A stretch of 41,414 bases of DNA from Balneola sp. (GTDB lineage Bacteria > Bacteroidota > Rhodothermia > Balneolales > Balneolaceae). The position numbers and the translations under genes were made by a program. The stretch covers positions 1-41,414 of the forward strand of contig NZQV01000003.1 of the NCBI GenBank assembly GCA_002696035.1, written 5' to 3'. The notes below the pieces were generated by a model, which was not told where the DNA came from, searched no databases, and worked only from the letters and a program-made list of their open reading frames with translations. Shown here piece after piece: positions 1-8,893 of the stretch (position 1 is its first letter; each line of letters opens with the position of its first letter).

Positions 1-135
1 TCATGGGATGGCCGTGACCGGGATTATGATCGCCTGGGTAACGGTACTTATATTTATGTGCTTCGGGTTACAACAGATACCCCGAAAGGAAGACAAACAT
101 CAGAAACAATCGAAAAGCTCGTAATTATTCGATAA
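1..135 (+). CDS. 3' end of a probable PorU-type (T9SS) secreted protein
   Basis: Only the last 44 codons are present, in frame from base 1 to a TAA at 133-135. The residues contain a W-D-G-R-D motif, then G-N-G-T-Y-I-Y-V-L, and end in K-L-V-I-I-R. That is the usual shape of a FlgD-like or T9SS C-terminal immunoglobulin-type fold. Known context: in T9SS-bearing phyla the sortase gene porU often lies immediately upstream of porV, and a PorV-family gene starts 54 nt downstream here. The PorU identity is inferred from that neighbour, since the catalytic part lies outside the window. Any other T9SS-exported protein with this C-terminal fold would look the same. Confidence 0.6.
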   Translation, partial: SWDGRDRDYDRLGNGTYIYVLRVTTDTPKGRQTSETIEKLVIIR

Positions 136-189: not shown

Positions 190-1341
190 ATGAAAAGGAC
201 AGTAGCCATACTAGCAGCGGGTTTATTCCTTGCATTTCCCGCCTTAACAAATGCACAGGTTGCCATTACAGCCGTACCCTTTCTACAGATCGAGCCGGAC
301 TCGCGTGGTGCCGGAATGGGTAATACCGGAGTAGCCCTAGCAGACAATGCATCTGCCCTATTCTGGAATCCATCGGGACTCGCGTTCCAAAAGAACAACA
401 ACCAGGCAAGTATTACCCACTCTAACTGGCTGGCCAACTTCAACGTAAGCGATCTTTTCTACGATTATGTAGTAGGAACTTATTACGTTGAGGGAATCGG
501 AACCATTGGCGCACACCTTACTTATTTGAATTTAGGTGAACAAGCCGTAACCGGAGAAGACAGCCCCGAGATCATTTCCAGGTTTAACAGTTACGAACTT
601 GCTTTTGGTGGTTCGTACGGGTACCAGGTAAGTAAGAATCTTGCAGTAGGTACCAGTTTACGGCTTATCTATTCAAGTCTTGCCAGCGGAACTTCCATCA
701 GTGCCCAAAAAGTAAATCCCGGAAGCAGCGTTGCCGTCGACCTTTCCTTTTTATACCGAACCGATCCCTTTGATATTGGCGGCCGAAACGCCCGATTCAG
801 TTTTGGATCCAATCTTTCAAACCTGGGCCCCGGAATTCAGTATACCGATAACGCACAGAAAGATCCCCTCCCAACCGTACTGCGATTTGGATGGTCTTTC
901 GATCTGGATCTGGATGATGCCGGGATCAACCGTATTACCATTGCCAATGATATTTCCAAGATCATGGCACGTACCACTCCTCAATACACCACTAATCCCG
1001 ATGGCTCCATCGACACCTCTCGTGTAGCTGCCGGACCTATCGAAGCCCTCGCAAAATCCTGGAGTAGTTTCGAACGCTTTGACGGACAGAACACTATTGA
1101 AGTTGGATTGATGCAACAGTTTATGATCGGCGCCGGACTTGAATACTGGTATGCTGACCAATTTGCCCTGCGTGGCGGTTACTATTATGAAGATCCCAAC
1201 AACGGTGACCGTGAATACATCACCTTTGGTGCCGGTATCCGATACAGCTTTATCGGGGTCGATTTCAGTTACATAAAAACACTGGAGTCTGATCACCCGC
1301 TGGCTAACACCCTAAGATTCAGTCTACTCATCGACTTTTAA
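190..1341 (+). CDS. porV: PorV/PorQ-family outer-membrane protein
   Basis: The 383-residue product starts with a signal peptide (about residues 1-22, ending in LTNAQ). Near residue 37 it has the family hallmark PDSRGAGMGNTGVALAD, followed by ALFWNPSGLAF. The rest alternates in the manner of a FadL-like beta-barrel and ends in an aromatic-rich strand (LRFSLLIDF). Known role: PorV is an outer-membrane shuttle of the type IX secretion system, which binds cargo C-terminal domains and passes them to the PorU sortase. It follows the porU-like 3' end by 54 nt and precedes a large T9SS-type cargo by only 3 nt, so transporter and substrate appear co-expressed. PorQ and other paralogs share the motif; the neighbour makes PorV the best call. 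Confidence 0.85.
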   Translation: MKRTVAILAAGLFLAFPALTNAQVAITAVPFLQIEPDSRGAGMGNTGVALADNASALFWNPSGLAFQKNNNQASITHSNWLANFNVSDLFYDYVVGTYYVEGIGTIGAHLTYLNLGEQAVTGEDSPEIISRFNSYELAFGGSYGYQVSKNLAVGTSLRLIYSSLASGTSISAQKVNPGSSVAVDLSFLYRTDPFDIGGRNARFSFGSNLSNLGPGIQYTDNAQKDPLPTVLRFGWSFDLDLDDAGINRITIANDISKIMARTTPQYTTNPDGSIDTSRVAAGPIEALAKSWSSFERFDGQNTIEVGLMQQFMIGAGLEYWYADQFALRGGYYYEDPNNGDREYITFGAGIRYSFIGVDFSYIKTLESDHPLANTLRFSLLIDF

Positions 1342-1344
1342 TCT

Positions 1345-4300
1345 ATGCCCCATTTGAAGTTTATTGCGAAGAGCATGTTAGCAATTAGCATGCTCTTTCT
1401 TTTTTGGAATTCCACCATTGAAGCTCAGAATATCCCCATAAAGCGCTCTCATGCCATTGCTGAACTTCAACCCAGAAGCAGCGCTAACCTGAATGCTACC
1501 GGTACGCTCAACGTAGTCGCCATCATGGTAGAGTTTCAGCCAGACAGCAATCGCCTTACCTCCGGAACCGGAATTTTTGGCCCTGATGGAATGGATGGGC
1601 TTCCCTATATGAGCAGAGCCGAAGATATTCGGGTTGAACCGCTCCCCCACAATCGCGGATATTTTGAAGCTCATCTCGAATTTGCAAAAAACTATTACGA
1701 AAAAGCTTCAGACAACCAGCTGACCATCAATTACCAGGTTCTGCCTGATACCTATCGGCTTCCAAAAAGAATGGAAGAATACTCCCCCACCGGAGAAAAT
1801 TTCACCAACGAAAAGATTGGACAGCTGGTACAAGATGCCTGGAATGAAGTAGCTAACGGACCCAATTTTGACGACACAGGTCTCGATCCCGAAAACACCG
1901 CCTTCATTATATTCCACGCCGGTGTGGGTCGCGATATCGAACTCACCGGAACCAACCTCGACATCACCCCTTTTGATATTCCTTCTCTCTATCTGACCAA
2001 AGGAAATCTTGGGAACCTGCTTGATCAGCCCAATTTTAATGGTTTTGAAGTGAATGACGGATCATTCCGGGTTACCAATTCTATGATCATCCCACGCACC
2101 GAGTCGCGGCGCGGCCTGGATATTCAGGAAGATGAATTTGTATTTCCACTTTCCATCAACGGACTTTTGATCGCCTCTATTGGCAGTCACCTGGGACTAC
2201 CCGACTTGTTTAACACCGAAACCGGAGATCCCGCTATTGGTCGTTTTGGACTCATGGACGGCGCCGGATTCTTTGCTTACAATGGATTACTGCCACCCGA
2301 GCCTTCCGCATGGGAGAAAATTTATTTGGGCTGGGAAACTCCCTTCGAAATTTCAGAAAACCGATCTACACCCATTGAACTTTCTGCCAGCTCTTTGGAT
2401 GAGCCGAATAGCATTGCCAAATATAACCTGTCCAGCTCAGAATACTTTTTGATCGAGAACCGTCACCGAGATCCGGATGGAAACGGTATTACCATCACTA
2501 TTCGCGAACCCAATGGAAATGAAGTTCAACAAACATTTACTAATGAAGACGAGGCTTTTGTCTTTCAGGAAGCAGGTTTCGATTCGCTGTTACAAGCCGG
2601 GACTTTTGTAAATGCCACCAATTTTGATTTCAGCCTGCCCGGCGGTCTGGATGTAGGTGAAGATGAAGACGACCCTTCTGACGATCGTAATCTTAATGGT
2701 GGTATTTTGATCTGGCATATTGATGAAGCCGTTATTGATGCTCAGCTTCAAGCAGGCCGTGTAAATGCAGACCCACAGCGCCGGGGCGTAGACCTTGAAG
2801 AAGCCGATGGCGCTCAGGACATTGGCAAAGCATTGACCGGAGCACTTGATAACAGTGCCGCTTTTGGAACCGCCTTTGACTTTTGGTGGGATGGTAATGA
2901 TTACCGGGTGATCCTGGAAACCGGACGGGAAGTGAGTTTCTATGATAATCGCTTTGGCCCAAATACCCGGCCCAATAATGATAGTAACACTGGAGCTAAG
3001 TCATTCTTTGAGCTGTATGATTTTTCCGAAAATTTGCCTGCAGCAACATTCAGCATTCGGGCGGTTGAAACGGAAGGGATTTTATTTGAACCTCTCTTCT
3101 CAACCAATGAAACCCGGAATACAACTTATTTTACCTGGGAACACGATTACTATGATTACTACCCGCTTTCCCTGGGAATTCATGAAGCTGATACCGATAC
3201 ATTTTTAGTGGCACCTACTAAAGATTTCACCTATGCTTTTGATCATTTGGATCCGGTTGAACCCAATTACCATTTAGGCTCTTCCCGTCAGCAACCCATA
3301 TTTGGAGATCTACTGATCATTTCTAATAATCCCCGCAATTATTCTGAGATCACCACCAATGGGTACGACCTCGACCTGGCCACCCAGGATAAGAGTGTAT
3401 GGAACACGCAAACATCGGCAAACCAGGGTTTCATAAGTTCACAGGATGGAGAAACTGTGGATCTAGATTTCACAGATATCTCTATCAATGTAGATGACGG
3501 CTCAGTTATTCAAAACACTTCGGGATATGAATTCCGCTCTGAAGTTGTAAACGGCAAATTCGTTGGTATCAATGGAAGTACGGTTATTTTTGTTGGGGAA
3601 GACATTCCAGATCATACTTCCAATGCTGAAAACAGATTATTTGCAGGTACCATAAAAAGCAATCAGGGTAATTTCTATTACTTGTTTGAAGACGGTGCTT
3701 TTTCAATAGTAGATCCAAATAAGGAGCACCCCATCACTCCAATTTTTGAAGAAGAAAAAGCCGAATGGCCCGCAATATTGGATGAAGGTCAAATTTTGCG
3801 CATCAATAAAACTGAGAGTTCAATTGAAGGATACAATTTTAATGGCGCCACATTGCATAATACCCCCATCTTTGCTCCTGATAGCATTCAGTTTATTGGG
3901 ACTCCCCTAATTGCAGATATCACCGGCGATAATATTCAGGATATATTGGTAGTGGGGCAGGATAAATATTCCGTTAACATATTCGCTTACGAGTTAACGG
4001 GTGAGCCCATTCAAGGTTTCCCGCTTTATGTAGGGGCTTCATGGGATGCCAAAACACAACCCATTCATCCCGTTATTTACGAAAATAAATTATATGCCGT
4101 TAGTCACCGGGGAGATCTGAAAGCCTGGGAATTCAAGAATTTCACCAGCTCCCAATGGCCCGCTCGTTATGGTAAGAACCCTTATAACAAAGTTTCCGGT
4201 TCTGTGAATATTTCCGGACCTGCTGAAACGAATTTTTCAGTATTGAATCCTGAGGAAACCTACAACTGGCCCAATCCGGCATCGGATCATACGAAAATAC

Positions 4301-4521
4301 GATTTGAACTTTCCGAACCCGGTGGAACGGTAGAGATCACAGTCATCAGTATGACCGGCAGAAAGATCTTTGAGGAAACCATTACCTCAAACGGAGGGTC
4401 GCCACAGGAGCTCACCCTAAATACACAAAACTGGGCAAGTGGCGGATATGTAGCCCGTGTAAAAGCCACGGTTGAAGGAAAATCAGAAACCAAACTCATT
4501 AAAATTGGAGTGTTGAAATAA
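1345..4521 (+). CDS. M6-peptidase-like secreted protein with T9SS C-terminal domain; zinc motif lost
   Basis: The 1058-residue protein has an N-terminal signal peptide (about residues 8-27). The M6 (immune inhibitor A-like) scaffold is visible in IIFHAGVGRD (near 188), HLGLPDLFN (282-290), IGRFGLMDGAGFF, PSAWEKIYLGW and ILIWHIDEAVID. In active M6 enzymes the residues before LGLPD read HExGH; here the aligned residues are ASIGS (277-281), so the metal ligands and catalytic Glu are absent and it is probably not a protease. A repeat-like region with PLIADITGDNIQDILVVG follows. The C-terminus (from YNWPNPASDHTKIRFEL) is a T9SS type-A sorting domain. It starts 3 nt after porV, and its TAA overlaps the next ATG by one base. 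Inferred role: a surface binding or structural protein exported by T9SS. Confidence 0.8.
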   Translation: MPHLKFIAKSMLAISMLFLFWNSTIEAQNIPIKRSHAIAELQPRSSANLNATGTLNVVAIMVEFQPDSNRLTSGTGIFGPDGMDGLPYMSRAEDIRVEPLPHNRGYFEAHLEFAKNYYEKASDNQLTINYQVLPDTYRLPKRMEEYSPTGENFTNEKIGQLVQDAWNEVANGPNFDDTGLDPENTAFIIFHAGVGRDIELTGTNLDITPFDIPSLYLTKGNLGNLLDQPNFNGFEVNDGSFRVTNSMIIPRTESRRGLDIQEDEFVFPLSINGLLIASIGSHLGLPDLFNTETGDPAIGRFGLMDGAGFFAYNGLLPPEPSAWEKIYLGWETPFEISENRSTPIELSASSLDEPNSIAKYNLSSSEYFLIENRHRDPDGNGITITIREPNGNEVQQTFTNEDEAFVFQEAGFDSLLQAGTFVNATNFDFSLPGGLDVGEDEDDPSDDRNLNGGILIWHIDEAVIDAQLQAGRVNADPQRRGVDLEEADGAQDIGKALTGALDNSAAFGTAFDFWWDGNDYRVILETGREVSFYDNRFGPNTRPNNDSNTGAKSFFELYDFSENLPAATFSIRAVETEGILFEPLFSTNETRNTTYFTWEHDYYDYYPLSLGIHEADTDTFLVAPTKDFTYAFDHLDPVEPNYHLGSSRQQPIFGDLLIISNNPRNYSEITTNGYDLDLATQDKSVWNTQTSANQGFISSQDGETVDLDFTDISINVDDGSVIQNTSGYEFRSEVVNGKFVGINGSTVIFVGEDIPDHTSNAENRLFAGTIKSNQGNFYYLFEDGAFSIVDPNKEHPITPIFEEEKAEWPAILDEGQILRINKTESSIEGYNFNGATLHNTPIFAPDSIQFIGTPLIADITGDNIQDILVVGQDKYSVNIFAYELTGEPIQGFPLYVGASWDAKTQPIHPVIYENKLYAVSHRGDLKAWEFKNFTSSQWPARYGKNPYNKVSGSVNISGPAETNFSVLNPEETYNWPNPASDHTKIRFELSEPGGTVEITVISMTGRKIFEETITSNGGSPQELTLNTQNWASGGYVARVKATVEGKSETKLIKIGVLK

Positions 4522-7500
4522 TGAGAACCCTGAGAACATCCATCATACTGTTTGGTTTGCTGTTTTTTGCATGGGGAAACTCTTTTGCTCAGACCGACGT
4601 CTCTTTTTACGACTATCCTCAGAATCACCTTGACTGGTTCACCATTGAAAGCGAGCATTTTCTGGTTCATTTTCAGGAAGGCAACAGTCGTTCCGGACAA
4701 GTGATATCCCGGATTGCAGAGGAAGTGTATGACCCTATCACCTCTTTGTATCAATATGCACCTGATGAGAAAGTCAGCATCGTCATCAAAGATCGTGAAG
4801 ATTATTCCAATGGTGCGGCTTACTTCTTCGACAACAAAATTGATATCTGGCTGCCTGCCCTTAATACGCCACTTCGGGGAACCCATAACTGGCTCCGAAA
4901 TGTGATAGCCCACGAATTTCTTCACATCGTTCAAATTCAAAAAGGAATGAAGCGCAGCCGTAAGATCCCGGCTTTCTATTTACAATGGCTTGCCTACGAG
5001 GATGTACGCCGCCCCGATGTGCTGTACGGCTTCCCAAATGGGATCGTCACCGCTCCTTTTGCCACCGTCAATATTCCCGCATGGCTTGCTGAGGGAACCG
5101 CTCAATATCAAACCTCGGGACTTTTGTACGAAACGTGGGATAGTCATCGGGACATGATCTTGCGCACCCGTATTCTCAATGACACTTATTTCAGCCTCGA
5201 TGAAATGGGTACCTTTACTTCCAAAACAAGCCTGGAACGCGAAACGGTTTATAATCAGGGCTATGCGTTTGTGATCTACCTGGCGGATCGTTTTGGGGAA
5301 GATGTGCTCCGTGAAATTACTGTGGAGCTGGGCGAACGAGGAGTATATCGTGTAGCACAGGCTATCGAAAATGCGACCGGCATCTCAGGTTACGAGGTAT
5401 TTGATGAATGGATAGCCGACCGAAAGAGTTTTTATGAAAACGCCATAGCAGATATCAATCCAACCGAGGCAGATACCGTTGAGCCTCTTGGGTTTTTCAA
5501 CTTTCACCCCCAACTTTCCCCCGATGGCGAGAAGCTGGCTTACATATCCAATAAGTTTGTAGATTTTGGCCTTCTCTCCCTTTATCTGAAGGACGTAAAT
5601 GGTGAAGAAAAAGAAATTGCAGTGATCAATAACGCCGATTTCAGAGAGTCTGATGGCCACGTAGCTTCCATGGAGCCGATCGTCAGTTTTCTGGAAACTT
5701 CTTTTTCCTTTTCTCCCGATGGCGAGAAAATTGCCTATGCCATCAACAAAAAAAATAAATACGGTGAACACTATCGCGACATCTTTCTATACGACCTTAA
5801 AAAGGAAGAAAGCAACAGGCTGACCAACAGCGCCCGTATAGAATATCCCGCATGGAATAACGCGGGTGACAAAATCGCAGCCGTTCAGTTCTCAGGAGGA
5901 ACCCAAAACCTGGTGCTCCTTTACCCCGAACATAAAGATTCTGTTACCACACTCACCACTTTCGAAAGTGGAGAAACGATTTACACGCCTACCTGGAGTC
6001 CTGACGATTCCAGGATCTATTTTGCCACAGCAGATCTTTCCAACCGAAATATTCATGTGTATGATGTAGAGTCTGGCCGAATTTCTGAAGTATTAGACGA
6101 TCCTTACCAAGATTACCGGGATCCGTTTTTAGGTAGAAATGGAAAATATTTGTATTACGCTTCCAATCCTGAAGGCATCTTCAACATCTTCAGAATGGAC
6201 CTTGAGACCCGCGAAACCGATAAACTTACCAGCGTGATCGGTGGAGCGTTCATGCCGTTTATTTCCGAAGACGGAGAACTTTACTACTCTGAGTTTAAAG
6301 TGGATGGCTACAAGATCATGAAAGCAGAGGTAGAGCCACTTCTGAACAATACCGAAAAAGGGTTGTATGAACCGGAGTTTTCGGATGAGGAGCCACAGCT
6401 TGTTGATAATTACGAATACATCGAAAAGCTTAACAATTTCGACGATACCGACCTTCGCCCCTTTTCGGAAGGAGCCCGGGCTGTCGCCGATACCGGTAAT
6501 TACGCTTACAGTATGTCCACCATTGATGACAACTCGGAGCGACTTTACCGCAAATATGAAGACACCTATTCAGGATTCAGCTTTTTCCCGGTTCTTCGTT
6601 TTGACAACTACACCAAGCCCAACGGCAATAATGGTGCGCTTATCAAAAATGGAAAATTTGGAAAGTTTGGTGAGAATTTACTTCGCGATATGAAACCAGG
6701 AGTCTATCTTTCATCCCGGGATGTGATCGACAAACTCAGCTTTTTTGGCGGGTTAATGGTTGGTGTGGCCTCTCAGCCCGCAAGCAGTATCGGCGGCTTT
6801 TTCCGGCCCGACCGCATTCTTGGCTTAGACCGTGATGCCTTCCTTATAGTGGAACACCGCGGCTTGCCTTTTATTGAACGAAGCTGGTCGCCAACCGTAG
6901 CACTGGAAGTCTATAACTTGCGCCGAAATGTATCTGATGGACTTTCCATCGAAGAATTCCCCTGTACCTCCTGCCTGCCAGATACCATCAGCACCGATAT
7001 AGCGTATGATGTCTGGGAAGCCGGACTGTTTCTGCGCAGTAAATTAAGCCGATTCAGCCTGCTGGAACTTGGGGTGATGTACAGTCCCTATCGTGTTTCA
7101 ACAGAGAATTTTTATTCCAGGGAACTGAAGCAGGACATTCCCGGGGAATCCTCACAATACTACAGAGGAACGACTTTATCTGCATCCTATACCTTCGATT
7201 ATTACATGTATTCCAATGATGCCGATATTGCTCCGCTTGGATTGAAGGGCTACGCACGATACGAGTATCAGCCTTCGAGTTTGCTGGAGGAATATGAGAT
7301 CAAAGAGGGCACCCTGTCTCCCATCTTCAAGGAATCCAGGAATCATTCAGCAGAAATTCATTTACGCTATGGGTTCAAAACCTTCAAAAATCAGTCCTTT
7401 CAGGCGCGCGTACGCGGATTTCATTATTTCAATGATCCCGATGATTCTTTCTTCTCTGATTATGTAGGCGGATTCCTGGGCATGCGGAGTTATCCGTTTT

Positions 7501-7880
7501 TTGCATTGGGAGGAAGTACTACAGGATTTACCAGCCTCTCTTGGTTTGCACCCATTTACCGAAATATTGGAACACAAGTTGGCCCTTATACCCTGGACAA
7601 ACTTTTTGCACGCTTCTTTTTTGAAACAGGAAATGGCTGGCGCAGTCCATACGACACCGGTAATAATCTTAAAACCGGAGTTGGTGCAGAAATTCGCCTG
7701 GCCCTGAATGGATTCTATTTATTTCCGCTCAAGTTTTTTGTAAGTACTTCATACGGGTTCAATGAGTTTACTCTTACCCTGCCCGATGATTTCATCACCA
7801 ACTCACAAACCAATCAGGTTACATACGGCCGGGAACTGCTCTTTCATTTTGGCCTGACCTTCGATTTTGAACTGCTATGA
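4521..7880 (+). CDS. peptidase MA-like domain + TolB-like propeller + outer-membrane barrel fusion
   Basis: The 1119-residue protein starts with a signal peptide (about 1-23, ending SFAQ). Residues 35-300 resemble gluzincin peptidases: HEFLH at 131-135 supplies two zinc ligands and the catalytic Glu, and WLAEGTAQY places a third Glu ligand near 191. Residues about 310-600 carry repeated S-P-D-G-E-K-x-A-Y and W-S-P-D-D-S-R-I-Y motifs of PD40/TolB-type beta-propellers. The last 400 or so residues are rich in alternating aromatic strands and end in FHFGLTFDFELL, as in Omp85/BamA-like surface-antigen barrels. It overlaps the previous gene by 1 nt (TAATG) and the next by 4 nt (ATGA). A cell-surface zinc protease anchored by its own barrel is the likely product; the substrate is unknown. 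Confidence 0.75.
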   Translation: MRTLRTSIILFGLLFFAWGNSFAQTDVSFYDYPQNHLDWFTIESEHFLVHFQEGNSRSGQVISRIAEEVYDPITSLYQYAPDEKVSIVIKDREDYSNGAAYFFDNKIDIWLPALNTPLRGTHNWLRNVIAHEFLHIVQIQKGMKRSRKIPAFYLQWLAYEDVRRPDVLYGFPNGIVTAPFATVNIPAWLAEGTAQYQTSGLLYETWDSHRDMILRTRILNDTYFSLDEMGTFTSKTSLERETVYNQGYAFVIYLADRFGEDVLREITVELGERGVYRVAQAIENATGISGYEVFDEWIADRKSFYENAIADINPTEADTVEPLGFFNFHPQLSPDGEKLAYISNKFVDFGLLSLYLKDVNGEEKEIAVINNADFRESDGHVASMEPIVSFLETSFSFSPDGEKIAYAINKKNKYGEHYRDIFLYDLKKEESNRLTNSARIEYPAWNNAGDKIAAVQFSGGTQNLVLLYPEHKDSVTTLTTFESGETIYTPTWSPDDSRIYFATADLSNRNIHVYDVESGRISEVLDDPYQDYRDPFLGRNGKYLYYASNPEGIFNIFRMDLETRETDKLTSVIGGAFMPFISEDGELYYSEFKVDGYKIMKAEVEPLLNNTEKGLYEPEFSDEEPQLVDNYEYIEKLNNFDDTDLRPFSEGARAVADTGNYAYSMSTIDDNSERLYRKYEDTYSGFSFFPVLRFDNYTKPNGNNGALIKNGKFGKFGENLLRDMKPGVYLSSRDVIDKLSFFGGLMVGVASQPASSIGGFFRPDRILGLDRDAFLIVEHRGLPFIERSWSPTVALEVYNLRRNVSDGLSIEEFPCTSCLPDTISTDIAYDVWEAGLFLRSKLSRFSLLELGVMYSPYRVSTENFYSRELKQDIPGESSQYYRGTTLSASYTFDYYMYSNDADIAPLGLKGYARYEYQPSSLLEEYEIKEGTLSPIFKESRNHSAEIHLRYGFKTFKNQSFQARVRGFHYFNDPDDSFFSDYVGGFLGMRSYPFFALGGSTTGFTSLSWFAPIYRNIGTQVGPYTLDKLFARFFFETGNGWRSPYDTGNNLKTGVGAEIRLALNGFYLFPLKFFVSTSYGFNEFTLTLPDDFITNSQTNQVTYGRELLFHFGLTFDFELL

Positions 7881-8893
7881 AAAAGCTGATCTTCATCATA
7901 CTTCTTTGTTTCTGCTTTGCCGGACAAACACTTGCTCAGCAAACGTTTCATTTTAGTAGTGGAATCTTTAAGAAACCGGATGTAGCAGAGACACAGAGAT
8001 CCAAGCAGGTCACTATTTCTGATTTTTCGTATCAGCCAAATGGCAATTCAAGTGTCTGGGAGATGCCCAGGACTAACCCGGGAGTTGCATTTGCTGCATC
8101 TGCTATTGTGCCGGGTGCAGGTCAGGCTTTCAACAAAAAATGGGTGCGTGCCGGTATTTACTTTGCTATTGAGGCCGCCGGGCTCATCTATCACTTCGAT
8201 AAGAATTCACTGGCCCGCCGGCAGGAAGAGGCCTACGAACAATTCACCCACGAAAACTGGAGTGTGGTTGCTTATGCCCAATGGCTGGTGCAGTATTCCG
8301 ATGCCAACAATCTAAGCCAAAGTCAGCTTAACAATCTTCGTTCTATGGTGTTCTCAAACGGCAGGCCTATTGCCCCAAATTGGGGAAATACACCCAATGA
8401 CTGGAGTGAAGTAAACATTCGTGTGTTACACGAGGTGGAGAAACAGACTCCTTTTATTTTAAATACCCCCGAAGGCTGCTGGGAAAATGATCCCCCAAAT
8501 TGTAACAGAAGAAGCGAGTTTTCGCATGAATTACCTCAATACGGATCACAGCAGTACTATGAGCTGATCAGTAAATACTATCAGTTTCAACCGGGATGGA
8601 GAGATTGGTATACAGACATTACCACGGCTGAAAATCAATCTGCAGCGGCCTTGTATCAATATATGTGGAATGGGCAAGATCAGCCTTTTGCCTTGTTTTA
8701 TCAGGGGCGGGATATGGCAGAAGAGTTCAACAATAATTATCGTAAAGCAGGGAACATCCTCAAGCTTTTACTGGTAAATCATGTAGTGTCGGCTTTTGAT
8801 GCGCTTTTTACCGTTCAGCTAAAAAACAGCCGACTAGAGACTAACGCCAACATGCTAAGCATGGAACAATTTTCGTTAACCTGGCACTTTTAA
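7877..8893 (+). CDS. membrane-associated protein, DUF5683-like
   Basis: The 338-residue product has a signal peptide (about 1-20, ending TLAQ). Near residues 70-105 there is a glycine/alanine hydrophobic segment, NPGVAFAASAIVPGAGQAF, then KWVRAGIYFAIEAAGLIY. The P-G-x-G-Q followed by a hydrophobic helix resembles DUF5683-type proteins of Bacteroidota. The middle holds two Cys-x(5)-Cys-like residues (EGCWENDPPNC), possibly a disulfide in the periplasm. It starts inside the end of the preceding barrel-protease gene (ATGA overlap), so translation is probably coupled and its function may be linked to that outer-membrane protein. The molecular function is unknown. Confidence 0.6.
   Translation: MKKLIFIILLCFCFAGQTLAQQTFHFSSGIFKKPDVAETQRSKQVTISDFSYQPNGNSSVWEMPRTNPGVAFAASAIVPGAGQAFNKKWVRAGIYFAIEAAGLIYHFDKNSLARRQEEAYEQFTHENWSVVAYAQWLVQYSDANNLSQSQLNNLRSMVFSNGRPIAPNWGNTPNDWSEVNIRVLHEVEKQTPFILNTPEGCWENDPPNCNRRSEFSHELPQYGSQQYYELISKYYQFQPGWRDWYTDITTAENQSAAALYQYMWNGQDQPFALFYQGRDMAEEFNNNYRKAGNILKLLLVNHVVSAFDALFTVQLKNSRLETNANMLSMEQFSLTWHF

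Follow-up and report, generated by a model that had tools for sequence, protein, structure and literature searches.

Thuringilysins are peptidases of family M6. Together with immune inhibitor A they are covered by the domain model TIGR03296, and M6 proteases have the motif HExGHxxGLPD. In the available part of PMC12237041, an Asp is described as the third zinc ligand of thuringilysins. Some inactive homologs are also known to act as regulators of related peptidases that are active, as described in sections of PMC11266112. For the type IX secretion system (T9SS), passages of PMC10994853 and PMC12618676 describe PorV as taking over type A sorting domains from SprA, and PMC12618676 also describes genes for type B cargo as frequently showing linkage with that of their dedicated shuttle. 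PorU, PorZ and PorA retain their own sorting domains, PorU and PorZ in P. gingivalis, as stated in excerpts of PMC11285876. An NCBIfam equivalog model, NF052323, has been given the curated name “T9SS-dependent M6-like inactivated metalloprotease”; for this family no publication was found among the matches listed from the open literature.

The window analysed here, a stretch of 41,414 nucleotides from Balneola sp., carries a member of this family (M6i; 1345..4521, on the + strand like all features of the window given below), encoded by an open reading frame of 1058 codons with zero internal stops. NF052323 matches residues 9-1058 over model positions 1-1043 with 1269.4 bits (cut-off 600). The family and the observation of a dead protease are already catalogued under this model and are not a discovery of the present work; what is added here is the linkage of M6i to porV, and its retention in five Balneolaceae genomes in which PorU above its cut-off, PorZ and C25 peptidases were not found. 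The initial annotation of the window had pointed to ASIGS ahead of LGLPD in place of HExGH, to the flanking M6 features FGLMDGAGFF, SAWEKIYLGW and ILIWHIDE, to an undamaged frame, to a position directly after porV and to a T9SS sorting domain. All of these were recovered: bases 2173-2205 encode ASIGSHLGLPD, with residue 277 beginning at 2173, and profile alignment places this segment where M6 proteases have HExGHxxGLPD; the three flanking segments are all present in M6i; the 1058-codon frame is uninterrupted; the end of porV and the start of M6i are three bases apart; and the sorting domain scores 30.2 bits with TIGR04183 (cut-off 23) and 35.4 bits with PF18962 (cut-off 27).

In an AlphaFold2 model built from 57 sequences (mean pLDDT 86.4, pTM 0.82), M6i is predicted to combine a module resembling InhA2 with a beta-propeller and a T9SS sorting domain of type A. 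A putative Sec signal peptide was judged by eye from the sequence at residues 1-28 (1345..1428), where the model has a helix at 3-25. The thuringilysin/InhA-like M6 module follows at residues 52-575 (1498..3069), and in VIA-align 2 this part of the model matched the InhA2 zymogen (4yu5) with Z 21.2 and 3.2 A over 378 residues, in a run on the Foldseek best 1000. The structure prediction that had been suggested as a check thus returned a model in which the M6/InhA-type fold appears to be retained. Residues from about 576 to 932 (3070..4140) matched BamB-like and other propellers with Z about 20-21, although propeller matches are frequent and hence carry little functional information. Among the best 50 Foldseek hits by E-value, most were chains containing a propeller; PorU (6za2) ranked 16th and M6 peptidases were absent. 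Sequence searches of the PDB gave zero M6 matches. The type A sorting domain occupies residues 975-1058 (4267..4518) and was the sole Pfam match above cut-off. PF05547 was absent from M6i, and a genome search with this model gave zero matches even in the controls and thus carries no weight. The M6 domain model TIGR03296 reached 68 bits on M6i against a cut-off of 110.8, and the M6i locus was its only match in the genome, so that no M6 paralog was found.

To collect relatives of M6i, NF052323 was run against 198 genomes from the phylum; it gave matches of at least 358 bits in 78 genomes, 74 of them above the curated cut-off. Together with named contigs this resulted in 157 loci and 149 distinct proteins (150 with that of the window), some of them truncated at contig ends; their sources are Balneolota, genomes of this class and phylum, and Ignavibacteriota. 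In the aligned family both His and the Glu of the motif were absent throughout: H277, E278 and H281 each occurred in 0/150 sequences, and the absence of all three from so many proteins exceeds what chance or sequencing error would produce. At the segment ASIGS of the window (residues 277-281, 2173..2187), position 277 was occupied by A (121), S (15), G (10) or N (4) and position 281 by S (127), N (21), G (1) or T (1). Several surrounding residues were kept. N272, at the start of the zinc-helix equivalent (residues 272-282, 2158..2190; a helix at the expected location in the model), was invariant (150/150), as were D287, the third zinc-ligand position (2203..2205), and D305, which directly follows M304 of the Met-turn (2254..2259); M304 itself was found in 146/150. 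An alignment of orthologs from other Balneolota had been proposed as a check on the five residues; in the present one, which extends beyond Balneolota, no sequence (0/150) has a normal HExxH at the site. This rules out a recent, strain-specific loss.

The comparison with active relatives relied on profile alignment. The M6i profile aligned with that of 11 HExGH-bearing M6 proteins over 378 columns (hhalign; probability 99.9, E 6e-36, 25% identity), pairing A277, S278, S281 and D287 of M6i with the H, E, H and D of M6. These columns and that of the Met-turn M were uniform in the reference (11/11), although the set (L163-L173) had been picked for an HExGH-like motif and the count for H, E and H is thus partly due to selection. 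An unselected count was provided by the TIGR03296 search of the phylum, which returned 30 loci: eight were M6i by coordinates, all lacking HExxH, and the other 22 all carried it (22/22), 13 of them above the TIGR03296 cut-off and nine below. Two loci above this cut-off, L174 (HEMFH) and L175 (HEFFH), stand outside the reference profile. The position of D305 is A in 10/11 reference proteins, and the column of N272 is unaligned. One member of the M6i family, L002, carries HEMAH at residue 139, remote from the zinc site.

No substitute for the missing ligands became apparent. All columns of the M6 module had Cys in at most 50/150 sequences, and of the His just H191 and H458 reached a conservation of 90%, both being shared with the reference set of M6 proteins (9/11 and 10/11, respectively); H110 is His in 132/150 members and K or R in 17. 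Going by this survey of conserved Cys and His, the M6 module shows no sequence sign of a new zinc site.

The gene appears to be maintained rather than decaying, as had been proposed from its frame. For 24 pairs with 80-97% identity, dN/dS ranged from 0.022 to 0.141, indicating purifying selection; these ratios are rough, as pairs overlap in sequences and several dS values exceed 1.5, near saturation. For residues 264-310 in the same pairs, 0-5.5 non-synonymous changes were counted against 4-24 synonymous ones. The open frame and the dN/dS values rule out a decaying pseudogene. A tree was calculated from 44 M6i rows (40 of the 150, including the window, plus four chosen ones) and 22 HExxH-bearing M6 domains. 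All 44 M6i rows formed one clade (branch 100/100), which was split from the HExxH-bearing domains in all 200 bootstrap trees; five HExxH rows on long branches are unsure in their own placement. The simplest reading of the tree would be a single, ancestral loss of the zinc site.

Directly upstream of M6i in the window lies porV (190..1341), encoding the T9SS outer-membrane shuttle (NF033710, 298.4 bits, cut-off 250; PF19572, 121.3 bits), and the window begins with the C-terminal end of PorU, the T9SS sortase (1..135; NF033707, 20.8 bits, model 1055-1095), the remainder of which is found on another contig of the same genome (G000:C25:6-3383, model 2-1075). This gene order is widespread. The named set comprised 80 loci, of which eight were too near a contig end, and in all testable ones (72/72) porV was located directly 5' of M6i on the same strand. 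The second set, from the phylum genomes and overlapping with the named set in organisms, gave 77/78, with G137 as the exception. PorU was present 5' of porV in 51/61 named and 43/47 second-set testable loci; in L053 it adjoins on the opposite strand, and in G079, G125 and G133 it is on a separate contig and M6i is still with porV.

On its other side, M6i overlaps by one base, in its stop codon, with the start of a conserved neighbour of 1119 residues (4521..7880), in which an HEFLH motif (4911-4925) and E191 are combined with a TolB-like propeller and, according to the model, an outer-membrane barrel. This neighbour is located directly 3' of M6i in 62/72 named and 69/77 second-set testable loci. 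HExxH was retained in 135/135 ortholog frames scanned, and H131, E132, H135 and E191 were invariant among 41 sequences. Its model (pLDDT 79.2, pTM 0.80) shows a helical domain, short strands that fit a propeller and long C-terminal strands, which we read as a barrel, and the protein is probably an outer-membrane metallopeptidase; an NCBIfam search gave zero names above cut-off. As far as sequence can tell, a single gene group looks to hold both a dead peptidase, M6i, and an adjoining peptidase that is seemingly intact. A further conserved protein with DUF5683 (7877..8893; PF18935, 29.8 bits, cut-off 26.7) lies 3' of the neighbour peptidase and was present in 96 of the scanned loci.

The co-occurrence of M6i with T9SS components was investigated in the phylum genomes. 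All 78 genomes with M6i had a PorV match, some below cut-off, and in G006 and G011 PorV was seen at the locus. PorU was above cut-off in 73/78, and a PorZ_N match was present in 71/78 and not found in seven; strict co-occurrence with PorU and PorZ, which was looked for as the mark of an attachment-complex member, was therefore not observed. Since PorZ_N matches occur in the own genome as well as in these 71, a role of M6i as replacement of PorZ is ruled out. The genomes with M6i and without PorU above cut-off (G061, G081, G108, G119 and G171) all belong to the Balneolaceae, have a completeness of 99-100% and retain SprA, and searches for PorZ_N and C25 gave zero matches in them. Weak, sub-cut-off matches to the PorU model (E 1.5e-5 to 4.6e-10) were provisionally taken for sorting domains. 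These five genomes had 7-32 type A sorting-domain matches (8 in G061 and 7 in G081); in genomes used for comparison the corresponding numbers were 66 in the own genome (G000), 66 in G089, 97 in G191 and 14 in PorU-bearing G159. At the level of loci only, PorU was absent from at least 5 kb upstream at ten further named ones (L083, L087, L088, L090-L093, L095, L096 and L098), which derive from Gracilimonas, Aliifodinibius, Rhodohalobacter and Balneolaceae. In a quickly built tree of 37 M6i rows, at least three changes of the PorU state are required. Judged from these profile searches, the T9SS of some Balneolaceae thus appears to lack a sortase: SprA, PorV and type A proteins are present, and matches to PorU above cut-off, PorZ_N and C25 are absent.

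Conversely, 63 of the 136 genomes with PorU above cut-off were without M6i, which means that M6i is not a universal T9SS part. PorU and PorV are both present in the five f3 genomes, PorZ_N in four of these and M6i in none. PorV and SprA are accompanied by neither M6i nor PorU above cut-off in G147 and G195, and the same holds for G151, in which PorZ_N is absent as well. A C25 peptidase match is present in G195 (G195:C1:2641921-2643054) within a frame of 1697 residues; it may represent another sortase or a protease among the cargo. A search for GldM (TIGR03517) gave zero matches in 13 genomes, PorU-bearing ones included, and thus carries no weight.

We predict that M6i is probably a non-catalytic T9SS accessory linked to PorV. 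Its zinc residues are gone from all family sequences aligned, its fold is retained in the model, and it is maintained by selection and linked to porV. The protein would be exported by the T9SS, the sorting domain being the single indication used for this step, and at the surface that domain would probably be held by PorV, as described for PorU and PorZ of P. gingivalis in the available passages of PMC11285876. The emptied cleft and the propeller may then serve in binding without cleavage, with cargo, an envelope sugar or the adjacent peptidase as possible targets. A role on the side of PorV and the translocon is more likely than one in sortase anchoring, because M6i persists with PorV where PorU and PorZ were not found. 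The initial annotation had suggested that the protein could have a structural or binding role at the surface, as part of the secretion locus; we infer the same, and the porV linkage strengthens this reading. Neither gene order nor co-occurrence is proof of contact, however, and there are points against an accessory role: M6i does not adjoin porV in G137, a sorting domain is carried by ordinary cargo too, and both the 63 PorU-bearing genomes and G151, G147 and G195 do without M6i. M6i could instead be ordinary cargo of the T9SS, acting at the surface as an adhesin or binding protein, lying in the porUV operon by chance and having no role in secretion. Its sorting domain is of the type A found in 66 matches of the own genome, and numerous PorV- or PorU-bearing genomes lack M6i. 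We nevertheless regard this explanation as unlikely, since porV adjoins M6i in 149/150 testable loci (both sets taken together, with their overlap in organisms), no second full-length M6i was seen among the at most three candidates scored per genome, and M6i has been retained in G061 and G081 despite their small sets of type A proteins.

Two further explanations were considered. M6i could be a pseudo-protease paired with a live one, serving the outer-membrane metallopeptidase at 4521-7880 as partner, decoy or regulator without cutting anything itself, in line with the inactive regulatory homologs described in PMC11266112, with the position of this neighbour directly 3' of M6i at most loci and with its HExxH in every frame scanned. 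The two proteins belong to different peptidase types, though, and at ten named and eight second-set testable loci the neighbour is not beside M6i, which makes such a partnership quite improbable. Alternatively, M6i could have remained an enzyme whose cleft uses a different metal site or a different chemistry, for instance through N272, D287 and D305. All three are invariant in the family, the position of D305 is A in nearly all reference M6 proteins, and none of 22 HExxH-bearing stretches, in an ungapped reading, has N five residues ahead of the first His (0/22). Against this stand the absence of conserved Cys, the restriction of position 277 to A, S, G or N and of position 281 almost entirely to S or N, and the fact that the two highly conserved His (at least 90%) are common to HExGH-bearing M6 proteins and hence probably structural; retained catalysis is accordingly the most remote of these readings, with hardly any probability. 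A more specific version of the accessory role can be put forward tentatively, although it is itself rather unlikely: in Balneolota, Ignavibacteriota and relatives, the exit site of the T9SS may include M6i as a structural subunit that has escaped recognition, a pseudo-protease platform docked on PorV that would receive or hold type A cargo and let a sortase-less T9SS, with no PorU, PorZ or C25, run in several Balneolaceae.

The interest of M6i resides in its T9SS context, chiefly in the genomes without sortase. Its linkage to porV extends over deep lineages, and this pseudo-enzyme has persisted while the state of PorU changed at least three times, which points to a component of type IX secretion not yet studied. 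The PorU-less Balneolaceae in turn point to natural type IX systems without sortase. Compared with described systems, M6i conforms to NF052323 along its whole length and shows no family-level difference from it, and the name of that model itself gives both the inactivation and the dependence on T9SS. With the M6 peptidases M6i shares the fold (residues 52-575), the Met-turn, the Asp of the third ligand and the EYFLIEN and HIDE segments, and it differs from them in having neither of the two His ligands nor the catalytic Glu; with respect to the features that define active M6 peptidases (MEROPS M6, metzincin), it lacks HExxHxxGxxD and has the Met-turn and the fold. PorZ and PorU are, like M6i, linked to the T9SS and carry a type A sorting domain, and PorZ also has a propeller (Pfam PorZ_N_b_propeller), but their N-terminal folds differ from that of M6i, which is present where neither of them was found. 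ADAM11, ADAM22 and ADAM23, described in part of PMC11266112, resemble M6i as binding proteins with dead metzincin modules, although they are eukaryotic, belong to a different metzincin family and have unrelated partners. Finally, the porV-M6i arrangement resembles the gene pairs formed by type B cargo and shuttle, by analogy only.
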